A stretch of 64,000 nucleotides of DNA from Microbacterium sp. (lineage in GTDB: Bacteria > Actinomycetota > Actinomycetes > Actinomycetales > Microbacteriaceae), in assembly GCF_017305435.1 (NCBI RefSeq), contig NZ_JAFKIP010000003.1, positions 434,001-498,000 of the forward strand, written 5' to 3'. Position 1 is the stretch's first letter, and every line of letters begins with the position of its first letter. The notes below the pieces were generated by a model. The model was not told where the DNA came from, made no database searches, and was given only the letters and a program-made list of their open reading frames with translations. The translations under genes and the position numbers were made by a program. This document shows positions 5,486 to 64,000 of the stretch, piece by piece.

Positions 5486-8400
5486 TCACCGAGCGCGCGC
5501 CCCCCGGCGCACGATCAGGAGCACGAGACCCAGCAGGAGGAGGCCGAGGGCGATCCCTCCGACCGTGCCCCACACCCATGCCGAACCACCGGTCACCGCG
5601 AGCGGGGGCGCCACCGCCTTCACGGGGGCGTCATCGGTGTTGTTGTTCGGGTTCTTCTCCGGCACATCCGTCGCCGACGGTGCCACCACCGCGACGTTCA
5701 GGAGCGTGCCGGTGACACCCGCACCCACCTTCGCGATCACCGTGATCGGCTCGCCGTCCTGGCCGGCGGCGAGAACATCGGATGCCGTGCAGGTGCCGTC
5801 GGCGCAGGTGTAGCCCTCGCCGGTGATCGACACGAGCGTCAGCCCCGTGGGCAGCTGGTCGGCGACCGTCCAGCCGGCGAGCACGTCGGACGGGCCGTCG
5901 TTGTGCGGCGTGAGCGTGAACGTCACGGTCTTGCCGGACTCCACCGTCTCGTCGCCCAGGCGCACCTTGGTGACGGTGAGGTCGTACTCGACGAGACCCG
6001 CGTCGATCGTGGGGTCGTCGGCCTCACCCGGCTCGGTGCGGTTGGTGCCCGACGCGGGAGCGGTGATGCTGACGCGTCCGGTCGTGACATCGGCATCCGA
6101 GTCGAGCGCATCGCCCTCGCCGCTGTTCTGCGTCGTGAACGACGTGCCGTCGGGCTTCACGAACTCGATGACGTAGTCACGTCCGGGGACGAGGTCGTCG
6201 AACGCGTAGTAGCCGTTGTCATCGGTCGTGGTGGAGCGGAGCAGTGTGCCCTCGGCGTCGCGGAGGTTGACGGTGACGTCCGACACGGGCGGCTCGTCCT
6301 CTCCCTGCACGCCGTCGCGGTCGTTGTCCCACCAGACGTAGTCGCCGACGCTCACGAGGGAGTCCACCGTGATGCGCTTCGAGTCGTCGTTGTCGGTCGG
6401 CGTCGCGCTCGTGTCGACCAGCGCGTTCTCGGGGCGCTGCAGCGGGTTCGTCTCCGGCACGTCCGTCGTGGCGGGCACGACGTAGGCGACATTGTTGAGC
6501 TCGCCGACGAAGTTCTCCGCGATCACCGCGGTGACCGTGATGGGCGCGCCGTCGGTGCCCGCCGGGAGTCCACCGCGGGAGACGCACGTGAGCAGGCTCA
6601 CGTCGCAGCGGTAGACCTCGCCGCCGTCGAGCGCCGTGATCGTCAGGCCGGTCTGCGGCAGTTCCACCACCGACCAGTCCTTCAGCGCGGCCGCCGGGCC
6701 GTCGTTGTGCGGCGTCAGCGTGAACGTGACCGTCGAGCCCTCGTAGTACGGGCCGCTCGAGGTGATCGCCTTGGTCAACGTGAGGTTGAACTTCACGAGA
6801 CCGGCGTCGATCGTCGGGTCATCCGGGGCCGTCAGCGAGTTGCCGCCGGATGCCGGAGTCGTGACGTTCACGCGACCGGTGGCGACATCGGCATCCGAGT
6901 CGCTCCTGTCGCTCTCGCCGGCGTTCTGCTTCGTGAACGAGTAGCCGTCGGGCTTCACGAACTCCACGACGACGTCCGTGCTCGGACGCAGGTCGCCGAA
7001 GGAGTAGAACCCCTGGGCGTTGGTCTTCGTCGTCGCGATGAGGGTCGTGCCGTCGGCCTTGTACAGGTTGACCGTCACGTCCTTCACGGGGTTGCCGTCG
7101 TTCTGCACGCCGTCGCGGTTGACGTCGATCCACACGTAGTCGCCGATCGAGACGAGCGACGCACCCTTCACGGGGGCCTCCGCGTCGTTGTCCGTCGGGG
7201 ACGTCGACGTGTCGGTCGTGTTCGTCGGCGGGGTGCCGAGCGGGTTCGTCTCCACGGCATCCGTCGGCGCCGGGCTCACGTAGGCGACGTTCTTGACGTC
7301 ACCCGAGAGGTTCTGGTTCACCGTCGCGGTCACCGTGATGGGGTTCCCGGTGGCGCCGGCCTTCAGCACCGTGCGGCTCGTCGCGGTCGCACCCGCGATG
7401 TCGTAGCCGTCGCCGGCGATCGACACGAGCGTGAGCTCGGCGGGCAGCACCTCGGTGACCGACCAGCCGGTCAGCGCATCGACCGGGCCGTCGTTGCTCG
7501 GGGTGAGCGTGAAGGTCACCGTGTCGCCCTTGTAGACGGTCTCCGTGGTGGTGCGCGTCTTGGTGAGCTTCAGGTTGTACTTCACGAGGCCCGCGTCGAT
7601 TCCGGGGTTGTCGGTCTTCCGCGCGCCGGGCAGGTTGGAGCCCGTCGCCGGCGTCGTGAAGGTCACGGTGCCGTCGACAGGGTTCGCATCGGAGTCCGTG
7701 AGGTCGGTCGACGGGCTGTTGTCCGTCGCGCTCGTCGCATTCTGCGTCGTGAAGGTCGTGCCCTCGGGCTTGACGAACTGCACCGTGTACTGCGTACTCG
7801 GGAGCAGATCCGTGAACCAGTAGTACCCGTCGGCATCCGTCGCCGTCGTCGCGACCTGCGCACCGTTCAGCAGCAGGTTCACCGTCACGCCCGCGGCGGG
7901 CTTGTCGTCGTTCTGCGTGCCGTCACGGTCGACGTCCCACCACACGTAGTCGCCGATGGAGACCTTCGGGACCTCCAGCTGCGCCTGCGCGTCGTTGTCG
8001 GTCGTCGTCGCGCTGGTGTCGGTCGACAGCGTGGGCTTCGTGAGCGGGTTCGTCTCCGCGACGTCGTCCTTCGACGGCGACACGTACGCGACGTTCTTCG
8101 CGACACCCGAGAAGATGGCGCCGATCGTCGCGACGACCGTGATCGTCGCGCCGTCCACGCCCGCGCCGAGCGCCTCGGTGGCGACGCAGGTCGCGGTCGC
8201 CGGGTCGCACGTGTATCCCTCACCCGTGATCGACACGAGCGTCAGCTGCGCCGGCAGCACATCGGTGACCGACCAGCCGGCGAGCGCCGCGACCGGGCCG
8301 TCGTTGTGCGGCGTCAGCGTGTACGTCACCTGCTGACCCGGGGCGAACGGACCCGCGGTGTCGAGCGTCTTCTTCAGCGACAGGTTGTACTGCACGAAGC

Positions 8401-56118: not shown

Positions 56119-57021
56119 ATGGAACTGCGTCAGCTGGAGTACTTCCTGTCGGTGGCGGAAGAGGGCCATTTCACCCGCGCGGCCGCGCTGTGCGGGGTGT
56201 CGCAGTCCGGCCTGTCGTCTGCGATCCGTTCCCTCGAGGACGAGCTCGGCGTCGAACTGCTGGCCCGGACGACGCGCAGCGTGCAGCTGACCGAGTCCGG
56301 GCGCGCGCTGCTGCCGTTCGCTCGCCAGGCGCTGACGCAGATCTCCGCGGGCCGCGACGCCGTTCTGGGCGCGGCGGAGCTGCTGACCGGCTCGCTCCAC
56401 GTCGGTGCCGAGCAGTGTCTCGGCGTCGTGGACCCGTGTGCGCTGCTCGAACGGTTCCATGCGCGGTTCCCCGCCGTCGACATCCACTACACGCAGGCCG
56501 GATCGCAGGAGCTCGCCGCGGGCGTGCGGTCGGGGCAGCTCGACATCGCGTTCGTCGCCGCGACCGACCCCGCTCCGGGGTGCCGGCGCATCGCGCTCGG
56601 CAGCAGACCGCTCGTCGTGGTCGTCCACCCCGCCGATGCCCTCGCCGGTGAGAGCGAGGTGTCGTGGGAGCATCTCGCCGGCCGTGAGTTCGTGGACTTC
56701 CGCCCGATCTGGGGCGCCCGGCGGCTCGCCGACGCCGCCTTCGCCGCACGCGGGCTGGAACGCCGCGTGCGCATCAGCGTCGACGATGTGCACACCGTGC
56801 TGGAGTTCGTCGACCATGGCCTGGGCATCGCGATCGTGCCGCAGCATGTGTCGCAGAAGCCCGAGGCGGCTCGTCTGCGCGTGCTCGACCTCCCCGAGCG
56901 CGATCGTCCGGAGTGGACCGTGAGCGCGCTTCTCGGTGCGCACGCGGGCGCCGCGGCATCCCGGTTCGTCCGGCTCATCGAGCAGCCGCTCGCCGAGCCC
57001 CTCGCCGTCGCGCGCGTGTGA
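56119..57021 (+). CDS. LysR-family transcriptional regulator
   Basis: A 300-residue regulator with an N-terminal winged helix (MELRQLEYFLSVAEEGHFTRAAALCGVSQSGLSSAIRSLEDELGVELLART, 1-51) and a periplasmic-binding-like effector domain (about 90-295) with AALLERFHARFPAVDIHYTQAGSQELAAGVRSGQLDIAFV. The ATG at 56119 has GGAGG six bases upstream. The start lies 70 bp from the divergent aldo/keto reductase, whose promoter region contains the nested dyad at 56070-56104. The effector is unknown; an aldehyde or quinone would suit the controlled enzymes. Confidence 0.93.
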   Translation: MELRQLEYFLSVAEEGHFTRAAALCGVSQSGLSSAIRSLEDELGVELLARTTRSVQLTESGRALLPFARQALTQISAGRDAVLGAAELLTGSLHVGAEQCLGVVDPCALLERFHARFPAVDIHYTQAGSQELAAGVRSGQLDIAFVAATDPAPGCRRIALGSRPLVVVVHPADALAGESEVSWEHLAGREFVDFRPIWGARRLADAAFAARGLERRVRISVDDVHTVLEFVDHGLGIAIVPQHVSQKPEAARLRVLDLPERDRPEWTVSALLGAHAGAAASRFVRLIEQPLAEPLAVARV

Positions 57022-57028
57022 GCGACGC

Positions 57029-58447
57029 TCAGCGCTCGGTGAGCATGCCGATGTTGATCCCCGCGGCCGCGAGCGCCTCGGTGGCGGCCGCGCGCTTGAG
57101 CTCGAGCGAATCGCCGATGTCCGCGGCGAGCCGCGGCCGCGCACGCACGAGATCGTCGAGGGTGGCCAGCGGGACGACCAGCAGCGTCACCACGTCGACG
57201 GCGACGGCCGCCGCCTGCGTGCGTTCGCGAGTGAGCGCGGTCTGACCGACGATCTCGCCGGGGCCGGCGTCGCTCGCATCGACGACGATGTCGCCGACGG
57301 TCACGCGGAACACCGCCCTCCCCGACACCACGAAGCCGAGTTCGTCGGGCACGATACCGGCGGGGACGATCACTTCGCCGAGGCCGTACCGCTCGAGGCG
57401 CGAGGTCTCGCGTAGGCGGTCCGCGTCCTCCGGGCGCAGGTGCAGCGCGGGGGCGAGCGCCGCGATCGCCTCGTCGAGACGCTCCGGCTCGGCGATCGGA
57501 TCGGTCGCATCGCCGTCGAGGGCGAACCGACGCCGCCGTGCCGCGTACCAGAGCCAGGAGAGGTAGACGCTCAACGCGTCGCCGGCGAGGCCTGGCCCCG
57601 TGATCGGGATGAAGACGGTGTACCCGCCGGCGCCGCCGTAGCTGGCGGTCGCTTCGAGACCCGGTACCCGCATCGGCAGGTTCCGGGCGGTCTCGACGAG
57701 CAGCGCGATGACTTCCTGCGGCGGATCGTCGGTCGCGAATTTCGCACCTGCGCTGACCCAGTACGCCCCCGCGGGCTGGGACTTGTTCGTGAACGACGCG
57801 CCGGACAGCGTCGAGTTCGGCACGATCTGGATGCCGGCACCCGTGTCGATGTGCACGGCGCGCCAGTTCACCTCGATGACGCGGCCCTCGCAGCTGCCCA
57901 CGGCGAGCCAGTCGCCGATCTTGAAGGGCTGCTCGAAGAGCAGGAGGAGCCCCGAGATCACCCCGCCGACGGCGTTCTGCAGCGCGAGACCCACGACGAT
58001 GCCGGTGACGCCGAGCGCCGCGATGAGGCCGCCGACATCCGCGTTCCACACCCACGAGAACAGCAGCGCGAGACCCACGACGACGAGGAGGAGGCGCACG
58101 ATCTCGACGAAGATCGTCGGGATGCGCTCCTGCCACGAGCCCGCTCGGGCGTTGCCGAACAGCGCGACGTTGAACGCCGAAAGGATGAGGAGGATCACGA
58201 GGAACCCGAGCACCGTGGCGACGACCCGCGTCCACACCTGGTCGGCCTCGGACCGCAGCGCGAAGGCCAAGAGACCGAACAGCCCTCCCACCGGGACGAT
58301 CCAGTTGCGCACGAGGCGTACCGGCGCCGCGGCCGGCGACCCCCGCCGCTGCAGCACGGCGAGCACTTCGGTGAGCACGACGAGCAGCACCGGCACCCCG
58401 ACGGCGAGGGCGACGGCACCCCAGATCAGGCCCCCGTCGAGCGTCAC
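57029..58447 (-). CDS. MscS-type mechanosensitive channel with C-terminal cyclic-nucleotide-binding-like domain
   Basis: A 472-residue membrane protein. There are four helices (about 8-30, 45-65, 73-97, 110-133), then the MscS pore helix region GGLIAALGVTGIVVGLALQNAVGGVISGLLLLFEQPFKIGDW (139-180) and the beta domain with NWRAVHIDTGAGIQIVPNSTL. Residues about 345-440 are a CNB-like jelly roll (GFVVSGRAVFRVTVGDIVVDASDAGPGEIVGQTAL). In the phosphate cassette the Gly-Glu pair is present, but the usual Arg position is Q411, with R409 close by, so cAMP/cGMP binding is uncertain. GTG 58447 overlaps the cyclase-like gene (GTGA), a strong hint of a joint function. Confidence 0.85.
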   Translation of the reverse strand: MTLDGGLIWGAVALAVGVPVLLVVLTEVLAVLQRRGSPAAAPVRLVRNWIVPVGGLFGLLAFALRSEADQVWTRVVATVLGFLVILLILSAFNVALFGNARAGSWQERIPTIFVEIVRLLLVVVGLALLFSWVWNADVGGLIAALGVTGIVVGLALQNAVGGVISGLLLLFEQPFKIGDWLAVGSCEGRVIEVNWRAVHIDTGAGIQIVPNSTLSGASFTNKSQPAGAYWVSAGAKFATDDPPQEVIALLVETARNLPMRVPGLEATASYGGAGGYTVFIPITGPGLAGDALSVYLSWLWYAARRRRFALDGDATDPIAEPERLDEAIAALAPALHLRPEDADRLRETSRLERYGLGEVIVPAGIVPDELGFVVSGRAVFRVTVGDIVVDASDAGPGEIVGQTALTRERTQAAAVAVDVVTLLVVPLATLDDLVRARPRLAADIGDSLELKRAAATEALAAAGINIGMLTER

Positions 58448-60600
58448 TGCTCGACCCTCCACACCTGCTGCTGCGTGCCGCGCACCTCGACGGACCCCGC
58501 GGCGGCGAAGCCGACCGTGTCCTGCAGCCGATCGCGGACGGTCTGGCTCACGTAGATCCCGGGCGCCGGGCTCACATTCCGCGCGCGGTATGCGATGCTG
58601 ACGGCATCCCCCCACAGGTCGTAGGCGAGGTTCGTCCGCGCCACGAGACCGCTCGTCACCGTTCCGGTGTCGACGCCGGCACGCAATCCGATGGACGAGC
58701 CGTTCTGCGCGTTGAACCGATCGATCACATCGCGCATCTGCAGGGCGAAGTCGACGGCGCGACGGACGTTGTCGACGCGGGGGACGACGAGGCCGGAGGA
58801 TGCCAGGTATCCGCCCCGCAGCGTCCGCACCTTCTCGATGCCGACCTTCTGCGCCGCCTCGTCGAATCCGCGCATGAGCACGTTGAGCTGCGCGACCTCC
58901 TCGCCGTTGTCGAGGCCGCGCGCGTAGTCGTCGAACCCGACGAGCTCGGCGTACACGACGGACACGTTCTCGTGCTGCTCGGCGATCGCCTGCTCACCCG
59001 CCTTGTACCGCTCGGCGAGAGACTCGGGCATGAGCGCGTGCAGCAGTCGCCGATTCTCGGTCTGCTGCTCGTCGATGAGCTCCTGCTTGAGCCGCAGGCT
59101 GGAGGCCATGTCGTTGAACGCCGCGCCGAGGTCACCGAACTCGTCACGCGACCCGGTCGCGACCTGCGCGGTGAGATCGCCTCCCGCGATTCTGCGGACG
59201 GCGTCGCCGAGGCGACGGATCGGCCGCGTGAACACCTGCGCGAGGAGGAGTGAGAGCACACTGACGGCGAGGAGGAGGGCAAGGGTCGAGAGCACCAGGT
59301 TGCGGGTGAAGTCGACGACCGGGGCGAAGGCTTCGGACGTGTCCATGCGCGCGACGGCGACCCAGTGCACGCCGTCGATGTCGACGGGTGCGTACGCCGT
59401 GAGGTTCTCCCCACCCAGGTAGCTGGTCGAGATCGCCGTCCCGGTCTCGCCACGGAGGGCCGCATTGACGGATGTGGTGTTGACGGGCTGGATGAGTACG
59501 GTGCCGCCTACCGCGACCGCGCGGTCGGCGATCTCCGGCGACGTCCCGTTCGCGATGACGTCGGCGCGGTACTTCTCCGGATCCTCCAGCAGTTCGCGCG
59601 ACGCGCTGCGCATGAGGTGGTCCTCCCCTGCGAGGTAGACCTCTCCCGTCTGCCCGAGGCCCTGGTCGGCCCACTTCTCATCACCGGTCATGGTGGCGTT
59701 GATGGTGTCCAGCGAGATCTGCGCGGCCAGCACACCGGTGATACCGGTGTCGTTGCCGATCGGCGAGAGCACCCAGACCGTGGGCACGTTGAGCGACGGG
59801 ATCCAGCGCTCGAAGTCGGTGACCCGTACCGTCTGCACGCTGTTCGTCGCGAGGACATCCTTGTACGCCTGCGCCAGCAGCGACTCACGGAAGGGTCCGT
59901 CATCGAGGTTCGTGCCGAGATCGATCCCCTTGTATGCCGAGTAGACGACGTCGCCGGAGAGATTGAGGAAGAGCACGTCCTCGTAGCCCACCTCGTCGAC
60001 GAGTCGGGAGAGGTAGTCGCCGTACTGCTGCGCCGCGGTCGAGAACGGGGTTCCCCCGTCGGCGGCGTCATCGACCTTCAGCGCAGCGTCGAAGTCGGTG
60101 AACTGCGCGGTGTAGTGGTACTGCAGCCACTTTCCGGCGGGCGATGTCGGAATGAACGCCGTCGGGCTGTAGGTCTCCCCCGTCCGCTCCTCCAGCTGCG
60201 GGATGAAGGTGTCCGTGTAGTAGCTCTCGAGCGCGCTCTCCTGCTCGGGTGTGAGCGTGCGGCTCTGCAGGTCGTCGAATCCGGCGTTGAGCGCGCGCGA
60301 CGCAGTCTGCGCGCTCAGGTTGCGCGAGTTCAGCGTGACGCCCTTGGCCTGCGTCGCCATCGTCGTCTCGATCGCCGCGACGCGCAGCTCGCGCACCGTC
60401 GTGAGCTGCTCGAAAGCCGCGTCGCGCAGGGACTCCCGCCCGCTGATGTAACCGATGACTCCGACCACGACGGCAGAGACGAGGCTCACGCCGAGCAGCA
60501 TGATGAGGAGCTTCGACTGGATGCCGAGGCCGCCGCGCCGGCGTCGCGGCCGGTCTGCGGGGGCTTCGGTCGCGCTGTCGCGGTGGTCGGGTGCGCTCAT
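58444..60600 (-). CDS. Cache-HAMP-class III cyclase-like membrane receptor with degenerate active site
   Basis: A 718-residue protein: basic cytoplasmic start, helix 30-53, a large outer sensor of the dCache type (about 54-433), helix 434-456, HAMP (455-507), a short signalling helix containing RRLLHALMPESLAERYKAG, and a class III cyclase fold (546-680). Aligned to active cyclases, the first metal Asp is Glu (E552 in YAELVGF), the second is Gly (G596 in TLRGGYLAS instead of TIGDAYMAV) and the transition-state Asn is Ser (S668), while K590, D661 and R672 are kept. It is therefore probably inactive as a normal cyclase or has altered chemistry. It overlaps the MscS-CNB gene by 4 bp. Confidence 0.85.
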   Translation of the reverse strand: MSAPDHRDSATEAPADRPRRRRGGLGIQSKLLIMLLGVSLVSAVVVGVIGYISGRESLRDAAFEQLTTVRELRVAAIETTMATQAKGVTLNSRNLSAQTASRALNAGFDDLQSRTLTPEQESALESYYTDTFIPQLEERTGETYSPTAFIPTSPAGKWLQYHYTAQFTDFDAALKVDDAADGGTPFSTAAQQYGDYLSRLVDEVGYEDVLFLNLSGDVVYSAYKGIDLGTNLDDGPFRESLLAQAYKDVLATNSVQTVRVTDFERWIPSLNVPTVWVLSPIGNDTGITGVLAAQISLDTINATMTGDEKWADQGLGQTGEVYLAGEDHLMRSASRELLEDPEKYRADVIANGTSPEIADRAVAVGGTVLIQPVNTTSVNAALRGETGTAISTSYLGGENLTAYAPVDIDGVHWVAVARMDTSEAFAPVVDFTRNLVLSTLALLLAVSVLSLLLAQVFTRPIRRLGDAVRRIAGGDLTAQVATGSRDEFGDLGAAFNDMASSLRLKQELIDEQQTENRRLLHALMPESLAERYKAGEQAIAEQHENVSVVYAELVGFDDYARGLDNGEEVAQLNVLMRGFDEAAQKVGIEKVRTLRGGYLASSGLVVPRVDNVRRAVDFALQMRDVIDRFNAQNGSSIGLRAGVDTGTVTSGLVARTNLAYDLWGDAVSIAYRARNVSPAPGIYVSQTVRDRLQDTVGFAAAGSVEVRGTQQQVWRVEQ

Positions 60601-61517: not shown

Positions 61518-64000
61518 TTACACCGTGTGGCGTCGACGTCTGATCAGGAGGATCGCCGCACCCCCGAGGATGAGGGTCGCGCCGCCGAAGATGCCCGCCG
61601 TCCACAGCTGCCCACCGGTGACCGGGAGCTTCGGCGTCAGGCCGAGCGTGTTCGCGAGGGAGACCGCGGCGCTCGTCCCCGGCTCGCCGCTCACGACGAT
61701 CGTCGCAACGGCGCTGCCCTGGTCGGTCACCAGCGTGACGTCGTCGCTCGTCGAGCTCCACGTGGTGCTGCTCCACACGACGCGCTCGGCGAGGGTCGTG
61801 CTCTTCTCCTCGACGCGCACCGCCGTTCCGAGCGGGAGGTCGCCGACGGTCACGGGAGTGCCCGCCGTGATCGTGACCTCGCGCGTCTGCTGCTCGCCGA
61901 GCAGATCCGTCCAGGTGAGGGTCACGGGGAAGGCGGTCGACGCCGATGCCCCGGCCCCCTCGCCGGTGAGGCTCTTCGTCAGCACGATGCTCCCGAGCGA
62001 CGGGATCGCGGTGTTCTCGAGGCCCACCTCGGCGACGGTCGCCGCGCCGATCGTGACGACGGCGGAGCCATCCTCACTCGCGACGACCTTCTCGCCGCTC
62101 CAGGTCGGCACCGCCCACGTGAATCGCTCGTTGTCGTCGAGGCCCGCCTCCGTCAGCGTCACCTCCGTGCCGTGCGGGATCATCGTCGGGAACTCGGTGA
62201 CGGTGCCGTCGGTCGGCACATCGAACGATTCGCTGTGTCGCTCATCGCCCTCCCACCACGTGGCGAGCACGGAGACCGTCGGCGGAACGTCGGCGTCGTT
62301 CAGCGACACGCCCGTCACGGTCTTGGCGACCGAGAACGTCCCCGGCGCCCAGTTCGCCTCGTTCGTGACGGTGACGAGCGTCGTGGCGCTCTGCTGATCG
62401 GAGACGACGACGGTCGCGGTGCGCTCACCCGTCGAGGTCACTCCGTCTCCGGAGATGACGACCGAACCCCAGACGACCGTCGGGAACGCCGGAGACGTTC
62501 CTTCGGTGAGGGTGACGACGGTGCCAGCCGGCAGCTGCACGCCGAGCGGCGTCGGCTCGACCGCGTTGATCAGGAGGTTGCGCGACTGCAGCTGTTCGTC
62601 GGCATCCCGCCAGGTCGCGGTCACCGGGAACTCGGTCGACGGATCGACCTCGTCCTTCGCGGCGCCGGCGATGCCCTTGATCAGGCTGATCCCGGCCGTG
62701 GAGGTGGCCGCATGGTTCTCGAGCGTGACGGATGCCTCTGCGTTCCGCCCGATCGTCACGACAGCCGACGTCCCCTGGACCTCGACTCCCGTTCCGGACC
62801 ACACCGGGGCGCCCCACGCGATGCTCGACCCATCCGAGAGCGGCGTCTCCGTCAGCGTCACCTTGGTGCCGATGAGCAGGTTCTGCCCGAACGGCACGGA
62901 CGTGCCGTTCGTCGGGAGAGTGAGCGTCGACGTCTGCGCGGTGCCGCCCTCCTCGGTCCAGGATGCGGTGACGCTCACCGTCGCCGGGACGGCGGGGTTC
63001 TGCGCCTGGGCGCCCGTGACGGCCTTGGTCAGCGTGAAGGTGCCGCGCGTGCGCTCGACGCTGTTGGTCAGCGAGACCGTCGCAGGAGTCGTCGCGTTCT
63101 GCGCCGTGACGGTCACCGTCGCGGGGTCGAAGACGGGCGTTCCCCACGTCAGCTGGTCATCGTCCGTCGGACGCACTTCGCTGAACGTGACGACGGCCCC
63201 GATCGGGAGCTTGTCGAGGGTCACCGGCGTCCCCGCCGTCACGGTGAACGTGCGGTCCGGCTGCGCCGGGACGTTCGCTCCGAGTGAGGACGTGTTGATC
63301 TTCGCCGTGACGGAGTACGTCTTGGCCGCGTCGACGAGACCCGCGGCACCGCCGGTGACGCTCTTGGTGAGCGTCACCGAACCGAGCTGCGCGGTGTTGG
63401 TGAGCGAGACGTCGACGTTCGTGCGGGGCGATATCGTCGCGGTCGCCGTCGTTCCGTCTTCGCTCGGGACGACGCCGGGCGACGCGGTGAACACGGGGGT
63501 GCCGAACGTGACGCCGGGCACCGACGGGAACGTGGGCTCGCTGAGCACGAGCGTCCAGCCCGTACCGCGAGCGTTGAGCGACTTCACCGGAGTGCCGTCG
63601 AGCGGCACCGACAGGTCGTACTCGTTCTGCGTCGTGCCGGTGGGGTCGACCTCCTTGACGTGCACCGTGAACGCCGTCCCGGCGGGCACGAATGCGGCGC
63701 CGGCGGTGTCGGCGAGGGTCTTGCTCACCGCGACACCACCCTTGGCGACGCCCGTGCCGGTACCGCTGCCCTTGTTGTTCTGGGTGACGGTCTTGGTCTG
63801 CTCGATGCCGCCGCCGGTCACGGTGTTGCTGTAGGTCGTGCCCGCGGCATCCATCCCGCCGCTCGTCGTGCACGTCGTGTACGTGACGACGTACTGGTAT
63901 TCGCGGCTGAAGCCATCGCTCGTGCCGGTCGGGATCGGCAGGTTCTTCGCGGGGATCGTGAAGGTCAGAGTGCCGCCGTTCTCGGCGACCTGGGTGTCCG
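61518..64000 (-). CDS. LPxTG-anchored surface protein with DUF5979 repeats (5' end beyond window)
   Basis: At least 827 residues of a larger secreted protein are visible; the frame stays open to the right edge with no start or signal peptide in view. About six DUF5979-type beta domains of 110-120 residues follow each other, each starting like GTFTLTKAVTGAQAQ or LGSIVLTKSLTGEGAG and holding W-x-x-PVWSG-type strands. The C-terminus is LPVTGG, one helix (LWTAGIFGGATLILGGAAILLI) and RRRRHTV, a classical sortase signal. It is probably an adhesin stalk. The first surface protein of this window uses LAVTGG instead, so the two may be anchored by different sortases. Confidence 0.85.
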   Translation of the reverse strand, partial: DTQVAENGGTLTFTIPAKNLPIPTGTSDGFSREYQYVVTYTTCTTSGGMDAAGTTYSNTVTGGGIEQTKTVTQNNKGSGTGTGVAKGGVAVSKTLADTAGAAFVPAGTAFTVHVKEVDPTGTTQNEYDLSVPLDGTPVKSLNARGTGWTLVLSEPTFPSVPGVTFGTPVFTASPGVVPSEDGTTATATISPRTNVDVSLTNTAQLGSVTLTKSVTGGAAGLVDAAKTYSVTAKINTSSLGANVPAQPDRTFTVTAGTPVTLDKLPIGAVVTFSEVRPTDDDQLTWGTPVFDPATVTVTAQNATTPATVSLTNSVERTRGTFTLTKAVTGAQAQNPAVPATVSVTASWTEEGGTAQTSTLTLPTNGTSVPFGQNLLIGTKVTLTETPLSDGSSIAWGAPVWSGTGVEVQGTSAVVTIGRNAEASVTLENHAATSTAGISLIKGIAGAAKDEVDPSTEFPVTATWRDADEQLQSRNLLINAVEPTPLGVQLPAGTVVTLTEGTSPAFPTVVWGSVVISGDGVTSTGERTATVVVSDQQSATTLVTVTNEANWAPGTFSVAKTVTGVSLNDADVPPTVSVLATWWEGDERHSESFDVPTDGTVTEFPTMIPHGTEVTLTEAGLDDNERFTWAVPTWSGEKVVASEDGSAVVTIGAATVAEVGLENTAIPSLGSIVLTKSLTGEGAGASASTAFPVTLTWTDLLGEQQTREVTITAGTPVTVGDLPLGTAVRVEEKSTTLAERVVWSSTTWSSTSDDVTLVTDQGSAVATIVVSGEPGTSAAVSLANTLGLTPKLPVTGGQLWTAGIFGGATLILGGAAILLIRRRRHTV

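Follow-up and report, generated by a model that had tools for sequence, protein, structure and literature searches.

A cyclase-like receptor and an MscS-type channel with an altered cyclic nucleotide-binding domain form a near-obligate gene pair in Microbacterium relatives and mycobacteria

We analyzed a window of 64,000 nucleotides from a Microbacterium sp. genome (positions 434,001 to 498,000 of contig NZ_JAFKIP010000003.1), within which two overlapping genes encode a membrane receptor with a class III cyclase-like domain and an MscS-type channel with a C-terminal cyclic nucleotide-binding (CNB) domain. The two genes come as a near-obligate unit, chiefly in Microbacteriaceae and Mycobacteriaceae, and we see about an even chance that their products make up a receptor-gated channel in which the pseudo-cyclase controls the CNB ring without cyclic AMP (cAMP), most likely by direct contact. 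As far as we searched the literature, three aspects of this pair are new: the breadth of the pairing, the loss of canonical residues on both sides throughout the family, and the existence of genomes with no class III match outside the pair.

The two genes are found together

Of 119 genomes from the window's genus, 33 gave a receptor and exactly these gave a channel, adjacent every time (one channel, in genome G055, is present as two complementary pieces on two contigs), and the other 86 genomes had neither gene. At the level of the class, with at most two receptor or four channel candidates scored per genome, a full-length receptor and channel were found in the same 30 of 394 genomes, and two more receptor genomes proved to be generic cyclase-domain matches; adjacency in both surveys was read by eye from the listed coordinates. 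Among 148 genomes of a mycobacterial genus, 118 carried the receptor and the channel was found in the same 118 plus one further genome, G591, which has a 150-residue channel fragment. Loci retrieved by the channel alone had the receptor in 30/30 cases (own locus included) and those retrieved by the receptor alone had the channel in 47/47 (own locus included, with two of the channels cut by contig ends). In addition, named loci retrieved by the receptor alone had the channel in 78/80, these being the best 80 of 513 from a contig scan with a receptor alignment (a single receptor sequence as query matched nothing). The three sets of loci fetched with a single gene overlap in genomes. The preliminary description of this DNA had regarded finding the receptor and channel mostly apart in other genomes as evidence against a coupled system; in the genomes and loci surveyed they are overwhelmingly side by side.

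The residue counts given below refer to 243 non-redundant pairs, a set that leaves out own copies of the pair (L001, L003, L033, L160 and L161), another MscS protein (L002), two broken loci (L099 and L110) and L281, as well as receptor pieces shorter than 440 aa and channel pieces shorter than 430 aa. Adjacency in the pair set (266/266) is partly by construction because 119 of its loci, L162-L280, were picked as side by side, and the unselected figures for pairing are those of the genus, class and mycobacterial-genus surveys and of the loci fetched with one gene. Evolutionary distances of receptor and channel correlate at 0.95 (calculated for the C-terminal 470 residues of the receptor), and in the 18 genomes that have two pairs a channel tracks its own receptor in 35/36 tests.

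Among the matches listed, the named carriers are Microbacterium, Agromyces, Leucobacter, Leifsonia, Curtobacterium, Herbiconiux, Mycobacterium, Mycolicibacterium and a metagenome-assembled genome (MAG) of the Propionibacteriaceae. A contig labelled as an Acidobacteria MAG (L130) also has a pair, 46% identical to that of the window, which may reflect mis-binning or transfer. The two exceptions among the 80 named loci are L127, taken up below, and L110 of Microbacterium sp. 8M (5884-7824), where receptor residues 1-588 run on, through a single in-frame deletion, into channel residues 434-469; the deletion takes out the cyclase domain and the pore together. A candidate gene fusion in Leifsonia aquatica (L099), read in one frame from receptor to channel, was rejected as a frameshift, as its sister locus L097 has two genes and the tail of the L099 receptor is out of frame.

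The receptor retains the cyclase fold and has lost catalytic residues

The receptor has an N-terminal transmembrane segment, an extracytoplasmic dCache-like sensor, a second transmembrane segment, a HAMP domain and a class III cyclase-like domain, in that order (transmembrane positions were assigned by eye). Its match to the Pfam family Guanylate_cyc (PF00211) scored 105.7 bits relative to a cut-off of 21.9 and its match to HAMP scored 59; the match to dCache_1 was weak, at 35.4 bits under a Pfam cut-off of 45. In the AF2 model, which has a mean predicted local distance difference test score (pLDDT) of 78.8, sufficient for placing domains, residues 60-420 form a confident mixed helix-strand region, and Foldseek matched the cyclase part to soluble guanylate cyclase, Rv1625c and AC9. 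The preliminary description had called the receptor cyclase-like, and both Pfam and Foldseek support a class III fold.

What remains of the active site within this fold? Residues were named from a profile alignment to AC9 and from the usual roles of these sites in class III cyclases. In the window's receptor the two metal-binding Asp residues are E552 and G596, the base Lys has become R592 and the transition-state Asn has become S668; the base Asp (D661) and the transition-state Arg (R672) are kept. Over the 243 pairs, metal Asp 1 is Asp in 171, Glu in 62 and something else in 10. Metal Asp 2 is Asp in five, Asn in 159 and Gly in 37, making 238/243 receptors non-Asp at this position. Both metal Asp residues are present in just three receptors (L143, L206 and L280), and in all three an Asp replaces the transition-state Asn. 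No receptor has the base Lys, the position of which is Arg in 231/243, and the base Asp661 is kept in 234/243. The transition-state Asn is present in 117/243 and the transition-state Arg in 99/243. When these four metal and transition-state residues are counted together, three are retained in 31 receptors, two in 95, one in 109 and none in eight, and the full set occurs in 0/243. The pseudo-cyclase is otherwise conserved, with 41/212 columns at or above 95%, a pattern in keeping with selection and not with decay.

The preliminary description had claimed a loss of cyclase chemistry, and at the sequence level this is what we see, both in E552 and G596 of the window's receptor and in the pattern across the 243 pairs. 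Judged from these residues, the absence of metal Asp 2 in nearly all receptors makes two-metal synthesis of any cyclic nucleotide unlikely. The two-metal mechanism is described in passages of PMC3961136, published in 2014, in which the loss of a metal Asp and of the Arg from Rv1359 is read as marking an inactive cyclase. The receptor family has its cytoplasmic fold in common with class III receptor cyclases such as Rv1625c, mammalian AC9 and GC-A, but differs from them in having lost the two-metal site and exchanged the base Lys for Arg.

The channel has a CNB domain that lacks the cAMP contacts

Pfam recognized MS_channel_2nd (PF00924, 66.2 bits) and MS_channel_1st (PF21088, 25 bits) in the channel and cNMP_binding (PF00027) at its C-terminus (31.4 bits, cut-off 27.5), in agreement with the earlier call of an MscS channel with a CNB-like domain. 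Foldseek matched the pore to MscS (E 8.8e-12) and YnaI and the CNB domain to 4muv, a CNB domain of M. loti (TMt 0.82). In the AF2 monomer (mean pLDDT 80, likewise sufficient for placing domains) the P-helix, residues 403-406, comes directly after G401-Q402. Alignment to CAP and PKG likewise places the cassette Gly at G401 and the position of the ribose-binding Glu at Q402. The position of the phosphate-binding Arg is Q411, or T410 if the loop is one residue shorter, and neither is Arg in the window's channel. The preliminary description had the cassette keeping Gly-Glu, with Gln411 in place of the Arg. The loss of the Arg stands, but the Gly-Glu that it noted, G397-E398, lies four residues early, and with the cassette at G401-Q402 the ribose Glu has been lost along with the phosphate Arg.

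These changes are shared by the family. The cassette Gly401 is present in 242/243 channels, Glu402 in 2/243, Arg411 in 4/243 and Arg410 in 0/243, and no channel combines Glu402 with Arg411. A looser count that accepts Arg anywhere from 409 to 413 gives 53/243, mostly at 409 and 413, and one of these (L199) also has Glu402. There is no Glu at 404 in any of the 243 channels. The domain does have a conserved motif of its own, TALTR(E/Q), with L405 in 238/243, T406 in 228/243 and R407 in 236/243, and the MscS core is highly conserved across the family. Among the 243 sampled pairs we found no homologue with the normal set of cyclase residues or of cAMP-binding residues; the preliminary description had named normal cAMP-binding residues and cyclase activity in close homologues as speaking against its proposal.

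An MscS pore followed by a CNB domain is also the architecture of the bCNG channels, which were reportedly described by Caldwell in 2010 and Malcolm in 2012. The window's family differs from bCNG channels in that its members are without the cyclic-nucleotide contacts and are tied to one type of receptor.

Relatives of the pair in mycobacteria

Rv2435c of M. tuberculosis and MSMEG_3578 of M. smegmatis are receptors of the same kind as that of the window, and we take Rv2434c, which fits the channel family, to be the partner of Rv2435c. Passages of published papers list Rv2435c among adenylate cyclases and give it a double Cache domain (PMC4822843), group it with Rv1625c as a cyclase of mammalian type and pair MSMEG_3578 with Rv2435 (PMC3961136), count MSMEG_3578 as one of eight genes for adenylyl cyclases in M. 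smegmatis (PMC7739888), present Rv2434c as a membrane protein with a possible role in the cAMP pathway (PMC11205783) and report expression of Rv2435c (PMC3938503). A 2004 survey (PMC2447327) names both Rv2435c and Rv2434c, and a passage of PMC10066036 describes a phage-resistant M. smegmatis, LM15, that has MSMEG_3578 D113G and in which lsr2 and an ABC transporter gene are altered as well. The primers given for MSMEG_3578 in a passage of PMC3961136 encode IVNKLV and LHNGYL; both are motifs of the window's receptor family, and LHNGYL carries the Asn at metal position 2. In print these proteins are an adenylate cyclase and a cAMP-pathway protein, and the passages cited do not mention that both have lost their chemistry. 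In the literature searched, which lay mostly outside subscription journals, we found no account of the pair as a receptor-channel unit or of the joint loss, although PMC2447327 may already remark on the pair or on missing residues. The earlier statement that no system with this pair had been described was thus too strong, given that the orthologues are known and bCNG is a named family. With this correction and that of the CNB Glu, the preliminary description was mostly right.

How might the receptor control the channel?

When the maker and the reader of a messenger are both degenerate and almost always occur together, the simplest explanation is direct contact. On this reading the extracytoplasmic dCache-like domain would sense a small molecule and the signal would cross the membrane via the HAMP domain to a class III cyclase-like dimer that makes no cAMP by the two-metal route. 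The pseudo-cyclase would then act on the ring of CNB folds beneath a heptameric MscS-type pore, opening or closing it, with protein interaction taking the place of the second messenger. The dimeric and heptameric states are taken from the known folds, and we infer the contact itself, which way the channel is gated and what kind of stimulus is sensed. A more specific version is that a dead cyclase dimer serves as the ligand, docking on a mechanosensitive-type channel at its CNB ring and gating it. A second-messenger pathway would then have collapsed into a single contact, which Microbacterium relatives and most sampled mycobacteria, probably M. tuberculosis too, inherit as a unit; we put this version forward tentatively, as a possibility that falls short of even.

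Several observations weigh against direct contact. An MscS heptamer and a class III cyclase dimer are an awkward match. Metal Asp 1 and the base-reading Asp661 are retained in most receptors and 31/243 have three of the four key residues, so nucleotide binding may survive, and the near-invariant R407 and its TALTR motif may just as well indicate a small-ligand site. The pairing is also imperfect: the receptor at L127 (a MAG) stands alone, with no channel found in the 6 kb downstream, and a few mycobacterial copies are in pieces or without a listed partner (e.g., receptor G605:C140 and channel G516:C136). Nor does covariation decide the matter. The preliminary description had proposed coevolution of the two proteins, and the family-wide loss of canonical residues from both agrees with this, but at the level of single residues the signal is at or barely above that of shuffled partners in an underpowered comparison. 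Mean-field direct coupling analysis of the 243 receptor-channel pairs (126 effective, 606 columns, or about 0.2 effective sequences per column, which is underpowered) gave no believable contact pattern. Mutual information equaled that of within-clade partner shuffles at 54 clusters (top-20 mean 0.309 vs 0.309), and at 13 clusters it was slightly higher (0.309 vs 0.279, the highest of 12 shuffles being 0.287), a small excess that deeper phylogeny can explain.

The main rival to direct contact is that the pair signals via a small molecule other than cAMP, with the altered cyclase binding or making another nucleotide and the altered CNB pocket reading it through R407 as an anion contact. It has this standing because D661 and R592, on the pocket side of the receptor, and R407 of the channel's conserved motif are kept. 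There is also a precedent, since passages of PMC10959531 describe CNB domains in the PKA regulatory subunits of trypanosomatids that likewise gave up cAMP and bind purine nucleosides instead. That route, however, depends on the cassette Glu and a second Glu, at the positions of PKA Glu200 and Ala202; in the window's family the first (402) is near-absent and the second (404) absent, which indicates that the trypanosomatid solution is not used here, and the missing metal Asp 2 argues against synthesis of a cyclic nucleotide as the ligand. On balance we consider this alternative rather unlikely. A less probable alternative still is that the genes are simply co-transcribed and jointly needed, with the channel working as a plain tension valve, the CNB domain being structural and the receptor acting beside it or setting its abundance or position. 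The highly conserved MscS core would suit such a valve, and one bCNG-type MscS channel is reported, going by paper titles, to gate on tension. Joint presence and absence, the matching of paralogous partners and the conservation of residues within the CNB cassette all suggest a more specific partnership.

Could cAMP be the messenger after all? If the pair were of the ordinary kind, a receptor with adenylate cyclase activity and a cAMP-gated bCNG channel, with unusual active-site residues, then the class III fold, the receptors with three of four key residues and the naming of mycobacterial orthologues as adenylate cyclases in passages of PMC4822843 and PMC7739888 would all be accounted for. We find this very improbable in view of the absence of the full metal and transition-state set from every receptor, the Asp for Asn exchange in the three that have both metal residues, and the absence of any channel with both Glu402 and Arg411. 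Alternatively, the receptor could be a regulatory half, akin to the mammalian C2 half, that joins an active class III cyclase from a gene elsewhere in the genome, the resulting cAMP gating the channel. The best profile matches of the receptor's cyclase domain are to the two-half mammalian cyclases, in which the C2 half likewise lacks the metal Asp residues, and M. smegmatis is said in passages of PMC7739888 to hold eight cyclase genes. Against this, the channel is without its cAMP contacts, and the window genome, for which the tool gives a completeness of 100%, has one PF00211 and one PF00027 match, both inside the pair; no further class III cyclase was detected in it by PF00211, in a search confined to class III. 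In the genus, 28/33 genomes with the pair have no PF00211 match outside it and five have others. As far as PF00211 detects, the C2-half explanation is refuted as a general rule, and we hold its chances overall to be slight in the extreme, although it could hold for mycobacteria. Matches to PF00027, the pair's own included, were found in 60/119 genomes of the genus, and the channel's CNB domain falls under detection in several genomes that have the pair. In G010, G011, G059, G079, G114, G116 and G124 the class III matches outside the pair are mostly two per open frame of about 1260-1370 aa.

If direct contact is correct, an extracellular signal controls a bacterial ion channel without a second messenger, and one of the mycobacterial genes listed as adenylate cyclases does not encode such an enzyme. 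The pair would then be a tractable two-gene case of a pathway of enzyme, messenger and channel turning into an allosteric complex, and a genome without another detected class III cyclase or CNB domain provides a setting in which to test it.

Organization of the locus

The two genes and their domains are given in Table 1. The 4-bp GTGA overlap noted in the preliminary description was confirmed, both genes being real, and GGAGG lies just 5' of the channel's GTG start. An NTGA stop/start overlap in the channel frame was found in 151/242 related pairs.

Table 1. Positions of the receptor and channel genes and of their features in the window
Feature	Position	Strand	Details
Receptor gene	58444-60600	-	718 aa
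Channel gene	57029-58447	-	472 aa, GTG start
GTGA, overlap of receptor stop and channel start	58444-58447	-	NTGA in 151/242 of the pairs
Pseudo-cyclase domain	58453-59094	-	Receptor residues 503-716, from profile alignment to AC9
CNB domain	57056-57475	-	Channel residues 325-464, from profile alignment to CAP and PKG

We considered whether the neighborhood holds a third partner, but the top conserved neighbors in 35 chosen loci were mostly shadow open reading frames of the pair. In 80 loci (L080-L159) the channel is followed downstream by a gene that we take to be cystathionine-synthase-like in 17 and by one that is presumably gamma-synthase-like in 16 (e.g., L133, 9578-12145). Neither adjoins the channel in the window. 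We read such neighbors as local gene order, perhaps an old one, although they may point to sulphur amino acids as a signal. In the window, inspection by eye placed a LysR-like regulator gene at 56119-57021 on the plus strand, which converges with the channel gene, their ends being 7 bases apart. Also by eye, a gene at 61518-63854 on the minus strand encodes a 778-aa repeat protein with a C-terminal LPVTG-like sorting signal and membrane anchor.

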